Origin: Bdellovibrio sp.
GTDB lineage: Bacteria; Bdellovibrionota; Bdellovibrionia; Bdellovibrionales; Bdellovibrionaceae
Length of the DNA stretch: 57,592 bases
Reading direction: 5' to 3'
Assembly: GCA_014376935.1 (NCBI GenBank)
Contig: JACMQO010000040.1
Location: forward strand, 1-57,592
In this document: piece by piece, positions 21,678 through 34,325 of the stretch
Position numbering within the stretch: position 1 is the stretch's first letter
Layout: the number at the start of each line of letters is the position of its first letter
Made by a program: the position numbers and the translations under genes
Notes under the pieces: generated by a model
Databases searched by the model: none
Told to the model about the DNA's origin: nothing
Seen by the model: only the letters and a program-made list of their open reading frames with translations

Positions 21678-22010
21678 TTAGGCCTTGGGCACGTACGAAG
21701 CCCCTTCGAAAACAACACCTTCTTCAATTTTTAGACTAGGAGTTGTTACTGTTCCGCGAAAGTTTGCTGGCGGCACCATGATCACTTTTTGATGAGCCAC
21801 AATGTTTCCTTCGAACTGTCCCTTTAGAATGACGTGGCTGGCTTCGACTTCTGCGCTGACAGATGCCGTTTCAGAAATGATCAAATGGTCGCGGGTAAAA
21901 ATCTCGCCCTTAAAGTGCCCCGAAATTTTTGCAGTTCCGCTATAAGAAAGGCGACCCTCGAACGAGCTGCCCTCTTCAATAAGTGTTGAAATCGTCTGTT
22001 CTTTTTGCAT
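21678..22010 (-). CDS. Bactofilin
   Basis: This 110-residue bactofilin is a small cytoskeletal protein that polymerises into filaments without nucleotide. The core (residues about 12-100) has the repeating beta-helix pattern of the family: 'EGSSFEGRLSYSGTAKISGHFKGEI', 'LIISETASVSAEVEASHVILKGQFEGNI', 'FRGTVTTPSLKIEEGVVFEGA'. Short non-conserved tails flank it. Its ATG overlaps the parB stop by one base (TAATG), so it is the third gene of a parA-parB-bactofilin unit. In Myxococcus, bactofilin filaments position the ParABS system; a similar role here is inferred from the linkage. Confidence 0.9.
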   Translation of the reverse strand: MQKEQTISTLIEEGSSFEGRLSYSGTAKISGHFKGEIFTRDHLIISETASVSAEVEASHVILKGQFEGNIVAHQKVIMVPPANFRGTVTTPSLKIEEGVVFEGASYVPKA

Positions 22011-22981
22011 TATGTGTTCAACTTTTCATAAATCTGATTCAGCTGCTCGTCGCTGTAAAAGTGCAGAATCACTTGGCCTTTTCCAGACTTATAATTGATT
22101 TCTGTTTTCGTTCCCAATTTTTTCTGAATTTGATCCGCCAGCTCGTGCGCCAGCTTCGATGCGACGTCTATATTAAGGCCTTTCGCATTCTCTTGCGCTT
22201 TTGAGTTCGACTTCGTTTTGGCTTTGATTTCATTTTCTAAAGCTCGAACAGACCAGCCCTTGGCGGCACACTCTTTTGCCAGTTTTACTTGCATTGGTTT
22301 GTCGGCAACAGAAAGTAAAGATTTAGCGTGGCCTACGCTCAATATTTTATCGGCTAACATTTCTTTAAGCTCATTCGGTAATTGAATCAAGCGAAGCGCA
22401 TTTGCGACCGTTGATCTTTCTTTTCCAACGCGCTCAGAAACTTCTTGCTGAGAATATCCGAACTCTGTCATTAGGCGCTGATAACTTTCGGCCTCCTCAA
22501 TGGGATCTAAATCTTCACGCTGAATGTTTTCAATAATTGCGATTTGCAAAGCTTCTTTGTCGGTAACAGTCTTTATGATCGCGGGAACCTCATGAAGACC
22601 CGCTAACTGCGAAGCTCTCCATCGTCTTTCTCCGGCGATAATTTCAAATCCGCCGGCAGGTCTTTTTCGAACCGTGATTGGTTGAATTAATCCGTTTTCT
22701 TTAATTGATGTCGCAAGCTCTTCCAAAAGCATTTTGTCGAAGTGCTTGCGCGGCTGGTAGGCCCCTGGAACCATTTTGTCGATGGCTATTTTCCATATTC
22801 TAGCTTCTGCATCAACCTCTTGAGCGACCGTTTTTGCCGCCAACCCTGACTCTTCCTGCTTCTTTGAATAGTCAGAGCTCTCGGCTCCGGACCCAGCAGG
22901 AGCCATCGGACTTTGATCAAACAACGAGTGCATTCCGCGACCCAGACCTTTTTTGTTTTTATTTTCTTTAATTATATCCAT
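22010..22981 (-). CDS. parB: Chromosome-partitioning protein ParB
   Basis: This 323-residue CTP-dependent clamp loads at parS and spreads over origin DNA. The N-terminal 80 residues are Gly/Ser/Glu-rich and include 'KGLGRGMHSLF', followed by the CTPase/ParB domain with 'GERRWRAS' and 'ENIQREDLDPIEEA'. A helix-turn-helix (YSQQEVSERVGKERSTVANALRL) and a C-terminal dimerisation domain complete the protein. It starts 4 bases after parA. Three parS sites sit about 830-970 bases upstream. Confidence 0.97.
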   Translation of the reverse strand: MDIIKENKNKKGLGRGMHSLFDQSPMAPAGSGAESSDYSKKQEESGLAAKTVAQEVDAEARIWKIAIDKMVPGAYQPRKHFDKMLLEELATSIKENGLIQPITVRKRPAGGFEIIAGERRWRASQLAGLHEVPAIIKTVTDKEALQIAIIENIQREDLDPIEEAESYQRLMTEFGYSQQEVSERVGKERSTVANALRLIQLPNELKEMLADKILSVGHAKSLLSVADKPMQVKLAKECAAKGWSVRALENEIKAKTKSNSKAQENAKGLNIDVASKLAHELADQIQKKLGTKTEINYKSGKGQVILHFYSDEQLNQIYEKLNT

Positions 22982-22984
22982 TGT

Positions 22985-23794
22985 TTACACCGACAATTCT
23001 AGTTTAAAGTTCTCGTTTTTTCCGAAGTTTTTTGTCCGCTCTATAAGCTCTTTGGTCATTTCCATATACATAAGTGCGCCGATAGATTTTGCATCATAGC
23101 CAAAAATGGATACTCCGTGACTGGGGGCTTCGCTTAGGCGGACGTTTCGGGGAATGATTGCGTTGAAAACTTTTTCTTTAAAGTGGGCGCGTATTTCCTC
23201 AACCACTTGGTGACTTAAGTTATTGCGTTTATCGAACATCGTTAAAACAATCCCCTCGATATGCAGCTGCGGGTTGATTCCCTTTTTGACTAGTCCAGCC
23301 GTATTCAAAAGCTGACTTAACCCCTCAAGCGCATAGTATTCGCACTGAAGCGGAACTAAAAAACTATTTGCTGCAGCCAAGGCGTTCAAAGTTAAAAGGC
23401 CCAGCGAGGGTGGGCAGTCAATAATAACGTAATCATATAATGATGAAACGCTCATGATTGCATTTTTTAGGCGGTATTCGCGCTGAGGCATATCCACAAG
23501 CTCGATTTCGGCGCCTACAAGGTCCGGATTTGAGGTGGCAATCCAAAGGTTCTTCGTATGTGTTGCAAATACGACTTCTTGAATATTCTTTTCGCCGATT
23601 AAAACGTGATAAATGTTTTTGTCTTCGGCTTCGTGTTTTTTGACTCCCAGCCCGCTAGATGCGTTTCCTTGTGGATCCATGTCGATGACCAGTGTTCGGT
23701 AGCCAAGTTGTGCTAAGGCCGATGATAGGTTAACCGTTGTTGTTGTTTTACCAACCCCACCTTTTTGATTCGCGATACAAATAACTTTAATCAT
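22985..23794 (-). CDS. parA: Chromosome-partitioning ATPase ParA
   Basis: The 269-residue ATPase binds DNA non-specifically and moves the ParB-origin complex. Deviant Walker A 'KGGVGKTTTTVNL' (residues about 9-21), Walker A' 'VIDMDPQGNASSGLG' and Walker B 'DYVIIDCPPSLGLLT' are all intact. The frame is open to 23827, where the extra residues (MFHVEQ) are simply translation of a parS palindrome. The ATG at 23794, preceded by AAGGAGACT, is the correct start. It is co-transcribed with parB and the bactofilin gene. Confidence 0.97.
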   Translation of the reverse strand: MIKVICIANQKGGVGKTTTTVNLSSALAQLGYRTLVIDMDPQGNASSGLGVKKHEAEDKNIYHVLIGEKNIQEVVFATHTKNLWIATSNPDLVGAEIELVDMPQREYRLKNAIMSVSSLYDYVIIDCPPSLGLLTLNALAAANSFLVPLQCEYYALEGLSQLLNTAGLVKKGINPQLHIEGIVLTMFDKRNNLSHQVVEEIRAHFKEKVFNAIIPRNVRLSEAPSHGVSIFGYDAKSIGALMYMEMTKELIERTKNFGKNENFKLELSV

Positions 23795-23810: not shown

Positions 23811-23826
23811 TGTTCCACGTGGAACA
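23811..23826. promoter_or_regulatory. parS: parS site 1 (perfect)
   Basis: TGTTCCACGTGGAACA is a perfect 16-bp palindrome of the near-universal bacterial parS type. It lies in the parA leader, 16 bases upstream of the start codon. ParB binding here could load the clamp and repress parAB. Confidence 0.95.
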
Positions 23827-23896
23827 TGTGTAGACTATTGGTGATGTTTTCTGTTCGATCAAGAATTATTTCAGTTTCAACAGAATTGATCCGATG

Positions 23897-23912
23897 TGTT
23901 CTACGTGGAACA
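23897..23912. promoter_or_regulatory. parS: parS site 2 (one mismatch)
   Basis: TGTTCTACGTGGAACA differs from the perfect palindrome at one position in the left arm. It lies in the intergenic region between parA and the divergent lipoprotein gene. Confidence 0.9.
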
Positions 23913-23937
23913 CGTTTTTTGCGCTTTTTATGATCGA

Positions 23938-23953
23938 TGTTCTACGTGGAACA
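23938..23953. promoter_or_regulatory. parS: parS site 3 (one mismatch)
   Basis: It has the same variant sequence as site 2. It ends only five bases before the ATG (23959) of the lipoprotein gene, so it covers that gene's ribosome-binding region. Confidence 0.9.
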
Positions 23954-23958
23954 ATTAT

Positions 23959-24507
23959 ATGACCAAATATTTGATGATCTTATCCTTATTGCTGTGTTTT
24001 TCTTGTTCGAAAAAGGATCCGCATCCTGAATCGAAAGACGAAATCTATTCTGACCTGTTGGCCGAGCAAGACATCATGACAAAAAGTGTAGACGCCGCAG
24101 AAAAAGAATTAGTCAATATGGAAAAGGCATTAAAGGGCGCAGTTCCACAAACGGGCCAGCTTAAACAGATGGAAATAAAGTTTTTTGAATCGAAAAATAT
24201 ATTCGAGAAATTAAAACAACAAAAACAATATTTCGACATAAAAGTTGAAGAGCGAAAGCAAGAGGTCGGGCTTCGATACGAAGAAAGCTTAACAAAGTCC
24301 GGAAGAAAATGGCCCGACCCCAAAGAGATCGAAATTTACAAGCAAAGACTAAAAATGTATCGTGATAAAATCGCCTGGGACAAAAACAAGGGTATAGTAA
24401 AGGCGAAGCCGAAAACTGCAGTCGGGGCACCAGTTGGTGGGCATGGGGCCGCACCATCGGCGGCAGAGCACAGAGCTGCTGCTGAACCACCGCCAGAGCA
24501 CAATTAA
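23959..24507 (+). CDS. Small lipoprotein with helical, charged body
   Basis: The 182-residue protein begins with a short lipoprotein signal ending in a cysteine (LSLLLCFSC, Cys about 18); the lipobox is imperfect because Cys rather than Leu/Val/Ile is at -3. The body (residues 30-140) is helix-rich with alternating Lys/Glu/Gln, suggesting a coiled coil. The tail is Ala/Pro/His-rich and likely disordered. I do not recognise a family. The frame is open from 23896, but that stretch is translation of two parS sites, so the ATG at 23959 is used. It is transcribed away from parA and convergent with rsmG. Confidence 0.7.
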   Translation: MTKYLMILSLLLCFSCSKKDPHPESKDEIYSDLLAEQDIMTKSVDAAEKELVNMEKALKGAVPQTGQLKQMEIKFFESKNIFEKLKQQKQYFDIKVEERKQEVGLRYEESLTKSGRKWPDPKEIEIYKQRLKMYRDKIAWDKNKGIVKAKPKTAVGAPVGGHGAAPSAAEHRAAAEPPPEHN

Positions 24508-24525
24508 TAAACTCAAATTAAAGAT

Positions 24526-25179
24526 TTAAATTTTATCGGTTCGAACAACAAACAAACGCGTGTCGCCAGCCGGAAGTTCGTATTTACTTTCTAGCCCAGG
24601 CAACCAACTAGAACATAATTGCGACGGAATCTCTGATATTTCTAAACTCCATTCGTCTGATTTAATATGAAAAACGACTCCGCCCTGACGAACCAACTTT
24701 CGCAAGGTAAGCAACGCCCTTGGGAGCGGCATGAAGTCTCGACATATGGCCTGAGTGAAACAATCATGTGGCATCGTTTCCACTTTTTTATTCGCAACAG
24801 AAACGTTACTAAGCTCTAAGGTGCGCACGACACCTTCTAAAAATTTAAACCGGCGCTCATCGGGCTCAATAAGAATCACTTTTTGATCTCTGTACAAGAT
24901 CCCGTAAATCAAACCAGGCAAACCGATGGCCCCGCCAAAGCTATATAACTCTATGTTTTTGTTAAGTTTTTCCCTAACAATTTTAGACGACTCGATGCTG
25001 TTTGCAAAGTACACAAGGTCAGCGTTTAAAATAACCTTCGAGGCGATGATGCTAGCCGTTTTGTTGTATTGAATTAGTTCCTGATAAAAAGACTCTAACA
25101 CCACGTGCGTTTCTTGACCCAGGTTTGGATACCACGTGCGAATGCGCCAATTATAGTTCGGGTCTGCTGACGTCTTCAT
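24526..25179 (-). CDS. rsmG: RsmG-family 16S rRNA methyltransferase, divergent
   Basis: This 217-residue protein matches the RsmG family (16S rRNA guanine-527 N7 methylation, cofactor S-adenosylmethionine) in length, in a Rossmann-type core, and in position next to mnmG. The motif usually written D-x-G-S-G-x-G-x-P-G is here SFGGAIGLPG (residues 80-89), so the first Asp/Gly pair is lost. The conserved Arg-Ala after the core and the Lys-Gly near the end are also altered (CRDF, IKSDEW). It may be an active but diverged enzyme or a relic. Its start overlaps the mnmG stop by 29 bases. The symbol is given by synteny plus overall similarity. Confidence 0.7.
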   Translation of the reverse strand: MKTSADPNYNWRIRTWYPNLGQETHVVLESFYQELIQYNKTASIIASKVILNADLVYFANSIESSKIVREKLNKNIELYSFGGAIGLPGLIYGILYRDQKVILIEPDERRFKFLEGVVRTLELSNVSVANKKVETMPHDCFTQAICRDFMPLPRALLTLRKLVRQGGVVFHIKSDEWSLEISEIPSQLCSSWLPGLESKYELPAGDTRLFVVRTDKI

Positions 25180-31602: not shown

Positions 31603-33006
31603 GTGGAAATCAATAGTTCGTTTTGGAGCCAAATCAAATCCTCGATGAAAAATAAAAATGGCGCCAGCAAGCTTTTAGAGAACTGGTTGGATCCTATCGA
31701 TCTAATTAAAGCCGAAAAAATTGACGGAAAATTAAAGATCACTTTGGGCGTTCCAAATCAGTTTTTCTTCTTCTACGTGAATGAACATTTGAAAGAAAAA
31801 ATTACGCTAGAACTTTCAGATCTTTGCCAAGAGGCGGTCCTGGTTGAATTCGTTGTGACTGGAAAAGTGGCTGATGAGTACAACACGTCTTTGCACGATG
31901 TTTTGCAAAATGCGGATCAGGTTTTTCAAACAGCTCAACAATCCGTAATTCCTAGACCAGCGCCTGTAAAAATTTCCGAAAACTTAAACACCGACTTCAC
32001 TTTTTCAACATTCGTTGTCGGCAAGAACTCAGAATTTGCGCACGCGGCCACTTATAACGTTTCAAGAAACCCGGGTTCAGACGATTACAATCCCCTGTTC
32101 ATCTACGGACCATCTGGAATGGGTAAAACGCATTTACTAAATGCGGCCGCGAATGAAATCAGAACTAACTTTCCCCATTACCGCATCACTTACGTCTCAG
32201 CTGAGCGCTTCTTAAACGAGTGCGTTTCAGGAATTCGTCGCCAAGAGATGGATAAATTTCGTCAAAAATACCGTGATAATACAGATATTCTAGTGGTCGA
32301 CGACGTTCAGTACATCGGGCGCGGTCAAGCGGTTCAAGAAGAGTTCTTTCATACAATCAACTCTTTCATTGAACGAAAAAAACAAGTGATTCTAGCCAGC
32401 GATAGAATGCCGAAAGATATTCTTAATTTAGAAGATCGTTCTCGCACACGTTTAGAGCGTGGGTTGATCGCTGATATCACAATGCCCGATTTAGAAACAC
32501 GTATTGCCATTTTAAGATACAAGTCTGAAAACTTTAACTTAAGAATTTCAGAAGAGACGATACTATATATAGCGAAGATATCTAAAAAATCGATTCGGGA
32601 ACTTGAAGGCAATTTAAAGAAAATTAAAATGTATTCAGAGCTTCAGGGCTTAAGCATTAATCTTGAACTTGCGCGCAAAGTTTTAGCACACCACGAAAAC
32701 ACGATCACGATTAGTATCGAAGAAATTCAAAGAATTGTTTCGGAATACTTCAAAATTCGTGTAGCTGATATAAAATCAACCAGCCGTGCGAAGCCCATCG
32801 TCGTGCCTAGACAAATTGCAATGTACCTAATTAAGAAATTTTTAGACAAATCTTTGGTGGATATCGGGCGCGCTTTTGGAGGCAAAGACCACACGACCGT
32901 GATCAGTTCTTTAGAAAAAGTAAAGAATCTACAATTGTCGGATCCTCAATTTAAGAACGATATCGATGAGTTAACTAACATTATCCACAATATCACAGGA
33001 CTGTGA
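31603..33006 (+). CDS. dnaA: Chromosomal replication initiator protein DnaA
   Basis: This 467-residue AAA+ initiator binds DnaA boxes and opens oriC. Domain I covers about 1-90. A short linker (about 100-125) precedes domain III with Walker A GPSGMGKTH (169-177), Walker B 'ILVVDDVQ', and the arginine-finger sensor segment. Domain IV has the helix-turn-helix signature 'GRAFGGKDHTTVISSLEKV'. The start is GTG at 31603 with a good AGAGGGGGAT ribosome-binding site. Length is typical. Confidence 0.98.
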   Translation: MEINSSFWSQIKSSMKNKNGASKLLENWLDPIDLIKAEKIDGKLKITLGVPNQFFFFYVNEHLKEKITLELSDLCQEAVLVEFVVTGKVADEYNTSLHDVLQNADQVFQTAQQSVIPRPAPVKISENLNTDFTFSTFVVGKNSEFAHAATYNVSRNPGSDDYNPLFIYGPSGMGKTHLLNAAANEIRTNFPHYRITYVSAERFLNECVSGIRRQEMDKFRQKYRDNTDILVVDDVQYIGRGQAVQEEFFHTINSFIERKKQVILASDRMPKDILNLEDRSRTRLERGLIADITMPDLETRIAILRYKSENFNLRISEETILYIAKISKKSIRELEGNLKKIKMYSELQGLSINLELARKVLAHHENTITISIEEIQRIVSEYFKIRVADIKSTSRAKPIVVPRQIAMYLIKKFLDKSLVDIGRAFGGKDHTTVISSLEKVKNLQLSDPQFKNDIDELTNIIHNITGL

Positions 33007-33218: not shown

Positions 33219-34325
33219 ATGAAAATAGAGATACAAAAGAAAGAGTTATTGAATATTTTAAGCAGAACTCAAAACATCGTAGAAAAACGAAATACGATGC
33301 CTATTTTAGTGAATGTTCTTTTAGAAGCACAAGATAATAGCCTGAAGGCCTACGCAACCGATTTAGAAGTTAGCCTAACCGATGTAGTCCCAAGTGTAAT
33401 TAAAGAGCCTGGCAAGGTCGCAGTAAGCGCTAAGAGCTTATTTGAAATCACGAAGGAATTGTTAGACGGACCTATTCAATTATTTAAAAAAGAAAATAAT
33501 TGGTTAGAAATTAAGCAAGGTAAGTTCTTATCTAAGATCATCGGCGTCGCGGCTGAAGAGTATCCGGTCTTTCCAACTTACAATTCAGAAAACTTTTCTA
33601 AAATCAATGCCTCTGAATTTAAAATGATGATCGATAAAACAATTTACAGTGTTTCTAATGATGAGACTCGTTATCATTTAAATGGTGTCTTCTTTGAATC
33701 TTTCGAAAAAAATAAAATTACAATGGTCGCTACCGATGGTCATCGTTTAAGCTTAATCAATAAAACTTTTAAAGAATTAAGCTTCACCGAAAAGATCGGC
33801 GTGATCATCCCGAAAAAAGGTTTATTCGAAATTAAAAAATTAATCGAATCAACGGTTGAAGATGTTTACATCGCGGTTGAAGGATCGCAGTTTATTTTAA
33901 AATCGGGATCAAGCGTTTTAATGATTCGTTTGATTGAAGGTAAATATCCCAATTACCAACAGTTTATTCCACAAAAGCTAACTCATAAAATCGTAGTTCC
34001 GCGGGAAATGATTTTATCTAGTTTAAAACGAGTTTCATTATTAGCGAATCAGAAGTCGAAAGCGATTTTAATGTCTTTCAGCGAAGATAAATTAGAAATC
34101 ACTTCGAATAATCCTGAGCTTGGTGATGCTAAAGAAGAATTAGATATTTCGTATAAAGGCCCGGACCTTAAAATTGGCTTTAACGCGCGCTACATCGAAG
34201 ACGTGCTGAAAAATATCGAGCAAGAGTTTGTCGAGTTCGAGCTTAACGATCAGCTGTCTCCGGGCGTGTTACGTGCTCACAATAATGCAGACTACTTAAA
34301 CGTAGTTATGCCAATGAGAATTTGA
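33219..34325 (+). CDS. dnaN: DNA polymerase III sliding clamp (beta)
   Basis: The 368-residue ring-forming processivity clamp has three homologous domains, each about 120 residues. The N-terminal 'KKELLNILSRTQNIVEKRNTMPILVNVLLEA' and C-terminal 'LRAHNNADYLNVVMPMRI' (the hydrophobic cleft and M-P-M-R tail) are family-typical. The ATG at 33219 is preceded by AGGAAAACAG. It follows oriC and begins the dnaN-recF pair. Confidence 0.98.
   Translation: MKIEIQKKELLNILSRTQNIVEKRNTMPILVNVLLEAQDNSLKAYATDLEVSLTDVVPSVIKEPGKVAVSAKSLFEITKELLDGPIQLFKKENNWLEIKQGKFLSKIIGVAAEEYPVFPTYNSENFSKINASEFKMMIDKTIYSVSNDETRYHLNGVFFESFEKNKITMVATDGHRLSLINKTFKELSFTEKIGVIIPKKGLFEIKKLIESTVEDVYIAVEGSQFILKSGSSVLMIRLIEGKYPNYQQFIPQKLTHKIVVPREMILSSLKRVSLLANQKSKAILMSFSEDKLEITSNNPELGDAKEELDISYKGPDLKIGFNARYIEDVLKNIEQEFVEFELNDQLSPGVLRAHNNADYLNVVMPMRI

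Follow-up and report, generated by a model that had tools for sequence, protein, structure and literature searches.

A chromosomal parS cluster adjoining a conserved predicted FliA-type promoter upstream of a lipoprotein gene in Bdellovibrio

Results

Genes and parS sites at the locus

We have analysed a window of 57,592 nucleotides from a Bdellovibrio genome, in which the genes parA and parB are followed by a divergent lipoprotein gene, with a cluster of parS sites in the intergenic region (Table 1). The cluster has parA/parB on one side and, on the other, a convergent block (rsmG-mnmG-mnmE-yidC) running towards dnaA. With dnaA at 31603 and dnaN at 33219, parS is ~8 kb from dnaA, and the cumulative GC skew has its minimum near 30 kb, i.e., the parS sites are both adjacent to parAB and proximal to the origin. 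A bactofilin gene (21678-22010) comes directly after parB, as does bd3904 in B. bacteriovorus, and its product is a possible candidate for a cytoskeletal partner of the segregation system. No Rfam family matches the window.

Table 1. Coordinates of the genes, parS sites and predicted promoter boxes in the window
Feature	Position	Strand	Description
parB	22010..22981	-	Pfam HTH_ParB, ParB_N, ParB_C
parA	22985..23794	-	Pfam AAA_31, 2.1e-68
parS site 1	23811..23826	.	perfect palindrome TGTTCCACGTGGAACA; parA leader, ~+1 to +16 of the predicted parA transcript
Predicted parA -10 box	23834..23839	-	AATAGT; N17 from -35 box
Predicted parA -35 box	23857..23862	-	TTGATC, sigma-70 type; spacing from upstream parS same in 8 sister genomes
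Predicted sigma-28 (FliA) -35 box	23870..23874	+	TTCAG; consensus from PMC3627812
Predicted sigma-28 (FliA) -10 box	23891..23896	+	CCGATG; 16 nt after -35 box; start expected inside parS site 2
parS site 2	23897..23912	.	TGTTCTACGTGGAACA, one mismatch; abuts -10 box of predicted FliA promoter
parS site 3	23938..23953	.	TGTTCTACGTGGAACA, identical to site 2; 5 nt before lipoprotein ATG
Lipoprotein gene	23959..24507	+	class-restricted; homologue of B. bacteriovorus bd3907 product; helical; motif C-x-KPDPxPELxDPIYxDL
rsmG	24526..25179	-	convergent with lipoprotein gene

The initial annotation had described three parS sites within 23811-23953, one perfect and two identical copies with one mismatch, and these are present exactly at the given coordinates, each being a 16-bp palindrome. 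It had also asked for a search of the genome for further copies; in the 3.27 Mb none exists beyond these three when up to two mismatches are allowed, while control matches amount to 0. Judged from its sequence, the cluster is the whole chromosomal centromere of a ParABS system. For B. bacteriovorus ParB and parS, CTP-dependent binding of parS by the cognate ParB is established (PMC10547168).

As to the positions of the sites, two placements made in the same annotation are correct: site 1 is in the parA leader, where it stops 16 nt short of the parA ATG (23794), immediately ahead of an AAGGAG Shine-Dalgarno sequence, and site 3 covers the ribosome-binding region of the lipoprotein gene (ATG 23959). 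Site 2, to which no role had been assigned, is the one that adjoins a conserved promoter element. The earlier reading holds in its outline, in that the sites are the chromosomal parS of an oriC-proximal ParABS system and are placed where bound ParB should hinder promoters, but it overlooked a conserved promoter of the FliA type.

A lipoprotein family restricted to one class

The assignment of the divergent gene product as a lipoprotein is borne out by 44 homologues, in which the lipobox Cys is invariant; the segment KPDPxPELxDPIYxDL after this Cys and a PQTGQ motif are conserved as well. The divergent gene is present in 55 of 60 relatives. In a profile search across the phylum, it was found in 89 of 291 genomes, all of them within the class of the window and with a single copy each. 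The window protein matches no curated family in Pfam and NCBIfam, and against the same collections the 44 homologues give scattered weak matches only, in one or two members each. Structure prediction yields a helical protein (pLDDT 80), for which a fold search in the PDB has returned generic coiled coils only and no significant solved relative. In B. bacteriovorus the homologue bd3907, located between the two parS sites, is listed only as an unknown protein (PMC10547168).

The gene is undetected in seven genomes of one related family (G039, G089, G239, G258, G267, G275 and G300; L295-L308; 1.3-2.4 Mb), where parS is kept and the promoter box described below is absent. An eighth genome of this family, G065 (99% complete), shows neither the lipoprotein gene nor parS at one mismatch, for which an assembly gap is possible.

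A predicted FliA-type promoter box at a fixed distance from parS

In B. bacteriovorus, the attack-phase FliA consensus has been mapped as TTAAG-N16-CCGATA, and promoters of this type make up about two thirds of the mapped attack-phase promoters (PMC3627812). The boxes TTCAG-N16-CCGATG in the window agree with 9 of the 11 consensus bases, and their spacing is exact. Since shuffled sequence gives ~11 matches of this quality per 57.6 kb, a single match is not significant and carries little information by itself, so the case rests on conservation. A pattern search for the simple FliA motif in four genomes was too unspecific to be of use.

Upstream of the lipoprotein gene, 73 of 92 related loci, from 35 of 51 genera, carry a CCGA that is followed by parS after 0-2 nt, and in 8 further loci parS is ~35-41 nt upstream of CCGA, beside the -35 box. 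A -35 box T(T/C)(A/C)AGnTTT precedes CCGA by 16 nt in 29 nonredundant loci, although the -35 box was not a criterion of selection, and this shared element agrees with the mapped attack-phase FliA consensus. As a control set we used the matches, mostly from unrelated organisms, that were obtained when all genomes were scanned for CCGA adjacent to parS. A -35 match of at least 4/5 at N16 spacing occurs at 40 of 46 family loci, as against 2 of 124 control matches in other genomes, and one of these two is itself a homologue.

Such a box could also be an extended part of the ParB site. This explanation is ruled out, as CCGA is found at only 3 of 98 downstream parS sites, and at none of the parA-side parS sites of six genomes in which parA and parS are present and the lipoprotein gene was not detected. 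The controls together thus assign the box to the lipoprotein gene and not to the ParB site. The six genomes have retained FliA, which rules out loss of FliA as the cause of the missing gene.

The window genome encodes FliA itself (TIGR02479, 272.5 bits, C128:2034-2705), and similar boxes exist at some of its flagellin genes. In one genome that retains the promoter element (G091), the FliA search has found no match; RpoD-like matches were missed there too, and the search may have failed. Overall, the anatomy of the DNA in which parS and the promoter are joined is well supported, and we regard the conservation of this junction between parS and a predicted attack-phase promoter as the main finding of this work.

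It has to be considered whether this is simply a centromere, where the sites serve for nothing but ParB loading and lie so near the lipoprotein start because a short intergenic region is used economically, with no regulation. The compact parAB-parS-rsmG neighbourhood would agree with this, as would the second parS sites of relatives, which lie in or past the 3' end of the lipoprotein gene; moreover, according to a review, loss of chromosomal ParB usually alters few nearby genes (PMC7022226). On the other hand, the spacing between parS and the -10 box is fixed within 2 nt over 35 genera, while the rest of the intergenic DNA shows hardly any conservation, and parS, by overlapping the -10 box, imposes a non-consensus last base on it. 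Several of the loci that have no parS overlap revert to the consensus CCGATA. We thus consider a centromere of this plain kind unlikely, though it deserves attention.

A predicted parA promoter and the arrangement of parS in relatives

Leftward of the FliA-type boxes there is a predicted parA promoter, and a similar one is found in 8 sister genomes, with a distance to the upstream parS of exactly 77 nt in each. It is weak by consensus, and a standard consensus scan of the window did not list it; in B. bacteriovorus HD100 an equivalent parA promoter is not recognisable. Site 1 begins 7 nt past the -10 box, i.e., at ~+1, and in most relatives the parA promoter and leader contain no parS. Since the two divergent -35 boxes are only 7 nt apart, polymerases at both predicted promoters should interfere with each other.

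In a typical locus, one parS is just upstream of the lipoprotein gene and another is in its 3' end or just past the stop codon, near the junction with rsmG; in the sister genomes the second parS, which nearly all relatives possess, is inside the 3' end of the gene. Compared with this arrangement, the window has two extra upstream sites and lacks the downstream parS, which is absent at 24380-24540 even with up to three mismatches. One sister genome (L014:1917) contains a decayed copy of the downstream parS, and another genome, G098, has 7-8 parS matches, compared with the usual 2-3 in relatives. Alignment suggests that sites 2 and 3 arose by duplication of the single upstream parS of the sister genomes. 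Among the three arrangement classes, the ParA tree requires at least nine changes, and its resolution is too poor to name the ancestral one. The parA-leader site and the triple cluster are, in this comparison of genomes, lineage-specific features.

These comparisons bear on the model of the initial annotation, in which ParB mainly represses parAB (autoregulation) and the lipoprotein gene, and FliA is irrelevant. The location of site 1 at the predicted parA start and of site 3 across the ribosome-binding region is what one would expect from such a repressor, and P. aeruginosa ParB does repress genes beside parS3/parS4, according to a review (PMC7022226). However, the parA-leader parS exists in only part of the genus, and the position of site 3 is likewise found only in some genomes; not being conserved, both are poor evidence for general autoregulation. 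In addition, the conserved feature is a FliA-type promoter, which is expected to be active while ParB is scarce. As a whole this model appears quite improbable to us, even if it is plausible in itself that ParB may repress parAB or the lipoprotein gene.

An effect at the RNA level, with the parS palindromes acting as hairpins in the 5' leader to control translation, would be compatible with the overlap of site 3 and the ribosome-binding region, and pairing is possible between half of site 3 and that half of site 2 which remains in the predicted transcript (23904-23953). In most relatives, however, the predicted leader contains half a parS, which is too short for a hairpin, and the chance that this explanation is right is very slim. 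The pairing between the halves of sites 2 and 3 would leave the region of the lipoprotein start codon free.

Discussion

The arrangement described above leads us to propose, with somewhat better than even confidence, that parS is occupied in alternation by FliA polymerase in the attack phase and by ParB in the growth phase, as a switch in which each excludes the other. According to this proposal, parS would sit on the starts of two back-to-back promoters, a rightward FliA promoter for the lipoprotein gene and a leftward sigma-70 type promoter for parAB. In the attack phase, transcription of the lipoprotein gene by FliA polymerase, with the DNA opened at parS, would block the loading of ParB and hinder the parA promoter. 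In the growth phase, when FliA has decreased and ParB has increased, ParB would occupy parS, build the segregation complex and shut the lipoprotein promoter. The activity of the promoter, its phase and the mutual exclusion are all inferred from DNA sequence. That the lipoprotein is regulated with the cell cycle, as had been suggested before, is likely, and the conserved FliA-type promoter gives a stronger reason for it than the one offered originally.

The proposal fits published observations in B. bacteriovorus. The parAB transcript varies by phase, and ParB is almost unnoticeable in the attack phase; in this phase ParB forms foci on bare parS, but none on parS with its native flanks (PMC10547168). 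Exclusion between FliA and ParB would partly explain why ParB clusters are missing from native parS in the attack phase. Both extended parS fragments blocked the foci in that study (PMC10547168), but the FliA element is present at only one B. bacteriovorus parS, and the other has no comparable promoter; we have also rejected a FliA promoter that would overlap HD100's second parS, as the best match there is weak. Occlusion by FliA is accordingly not the whole cause, and another factor or mechanism must act at the second parS, whose flanks also block.

A bolder version, which is possible but rather doubtful at present, would be that in the attack phase the centromere is switched off by a developmental sigma factor: FliA polymerase would occupy the promoter adjoining parS, make the class-restricted lipoprotein and shut out both ParB and the parAB promoter, until ParB takes over at the start of the growth phase. 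If this is true, the centromere would itself be a switch between non-replicating and replicating states. The 2023 study raised, and did not answer, the question of which Bdellovibrio-specific factor excludes ParB from native parS in the attack phase (PMC10547168). For at least one of the two sites, the conserved FliA promoter next to parS offers a concrete and easily mutated candidate, and it would link chromosome segregation directly with the master regulator of predatory life. In the open-access literature that was searched, only three papers contain parS, ParB and FliA together, and judged by title and abstract none of them deals with this topic.

Comparison with known systems

In P. aeruginosa, binding of ParB at the intergenic parS3/parS4 lowers the expression of the adjacent PA0011/PA0013, and these are chromosomal parS sites like those of the window; in the part of the review that describes them (PMC7022226), they appear without an alternative-sigma promoter at a fixed conserved spacing and without a phase switch.

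The ParABS system of B. bacteriovorus HD100 (PMC10547168) has the same gene order and a homologous lipoprotein gene. Its upstream parS (locus L036) abuts TTATG-N16-CCGATG in the same manner as in the window, but bd3907 is bracketed by two sites, parS1 and parS2, whereas all three sites of the window are upstream of the gene and a downstream one is absent. That study does not mention FliA, nor does it mention any promoter at parS.

The attack-phase FliA promoters of B. bacteriovorus (PMC3627812) have the same TTAAG-N16-CCGATA type of boxes and the same spacing as the element found here. The window differs from them in that the last base of its -10 box is not the consensus A, and in that the predicted start is inside a ParB site.
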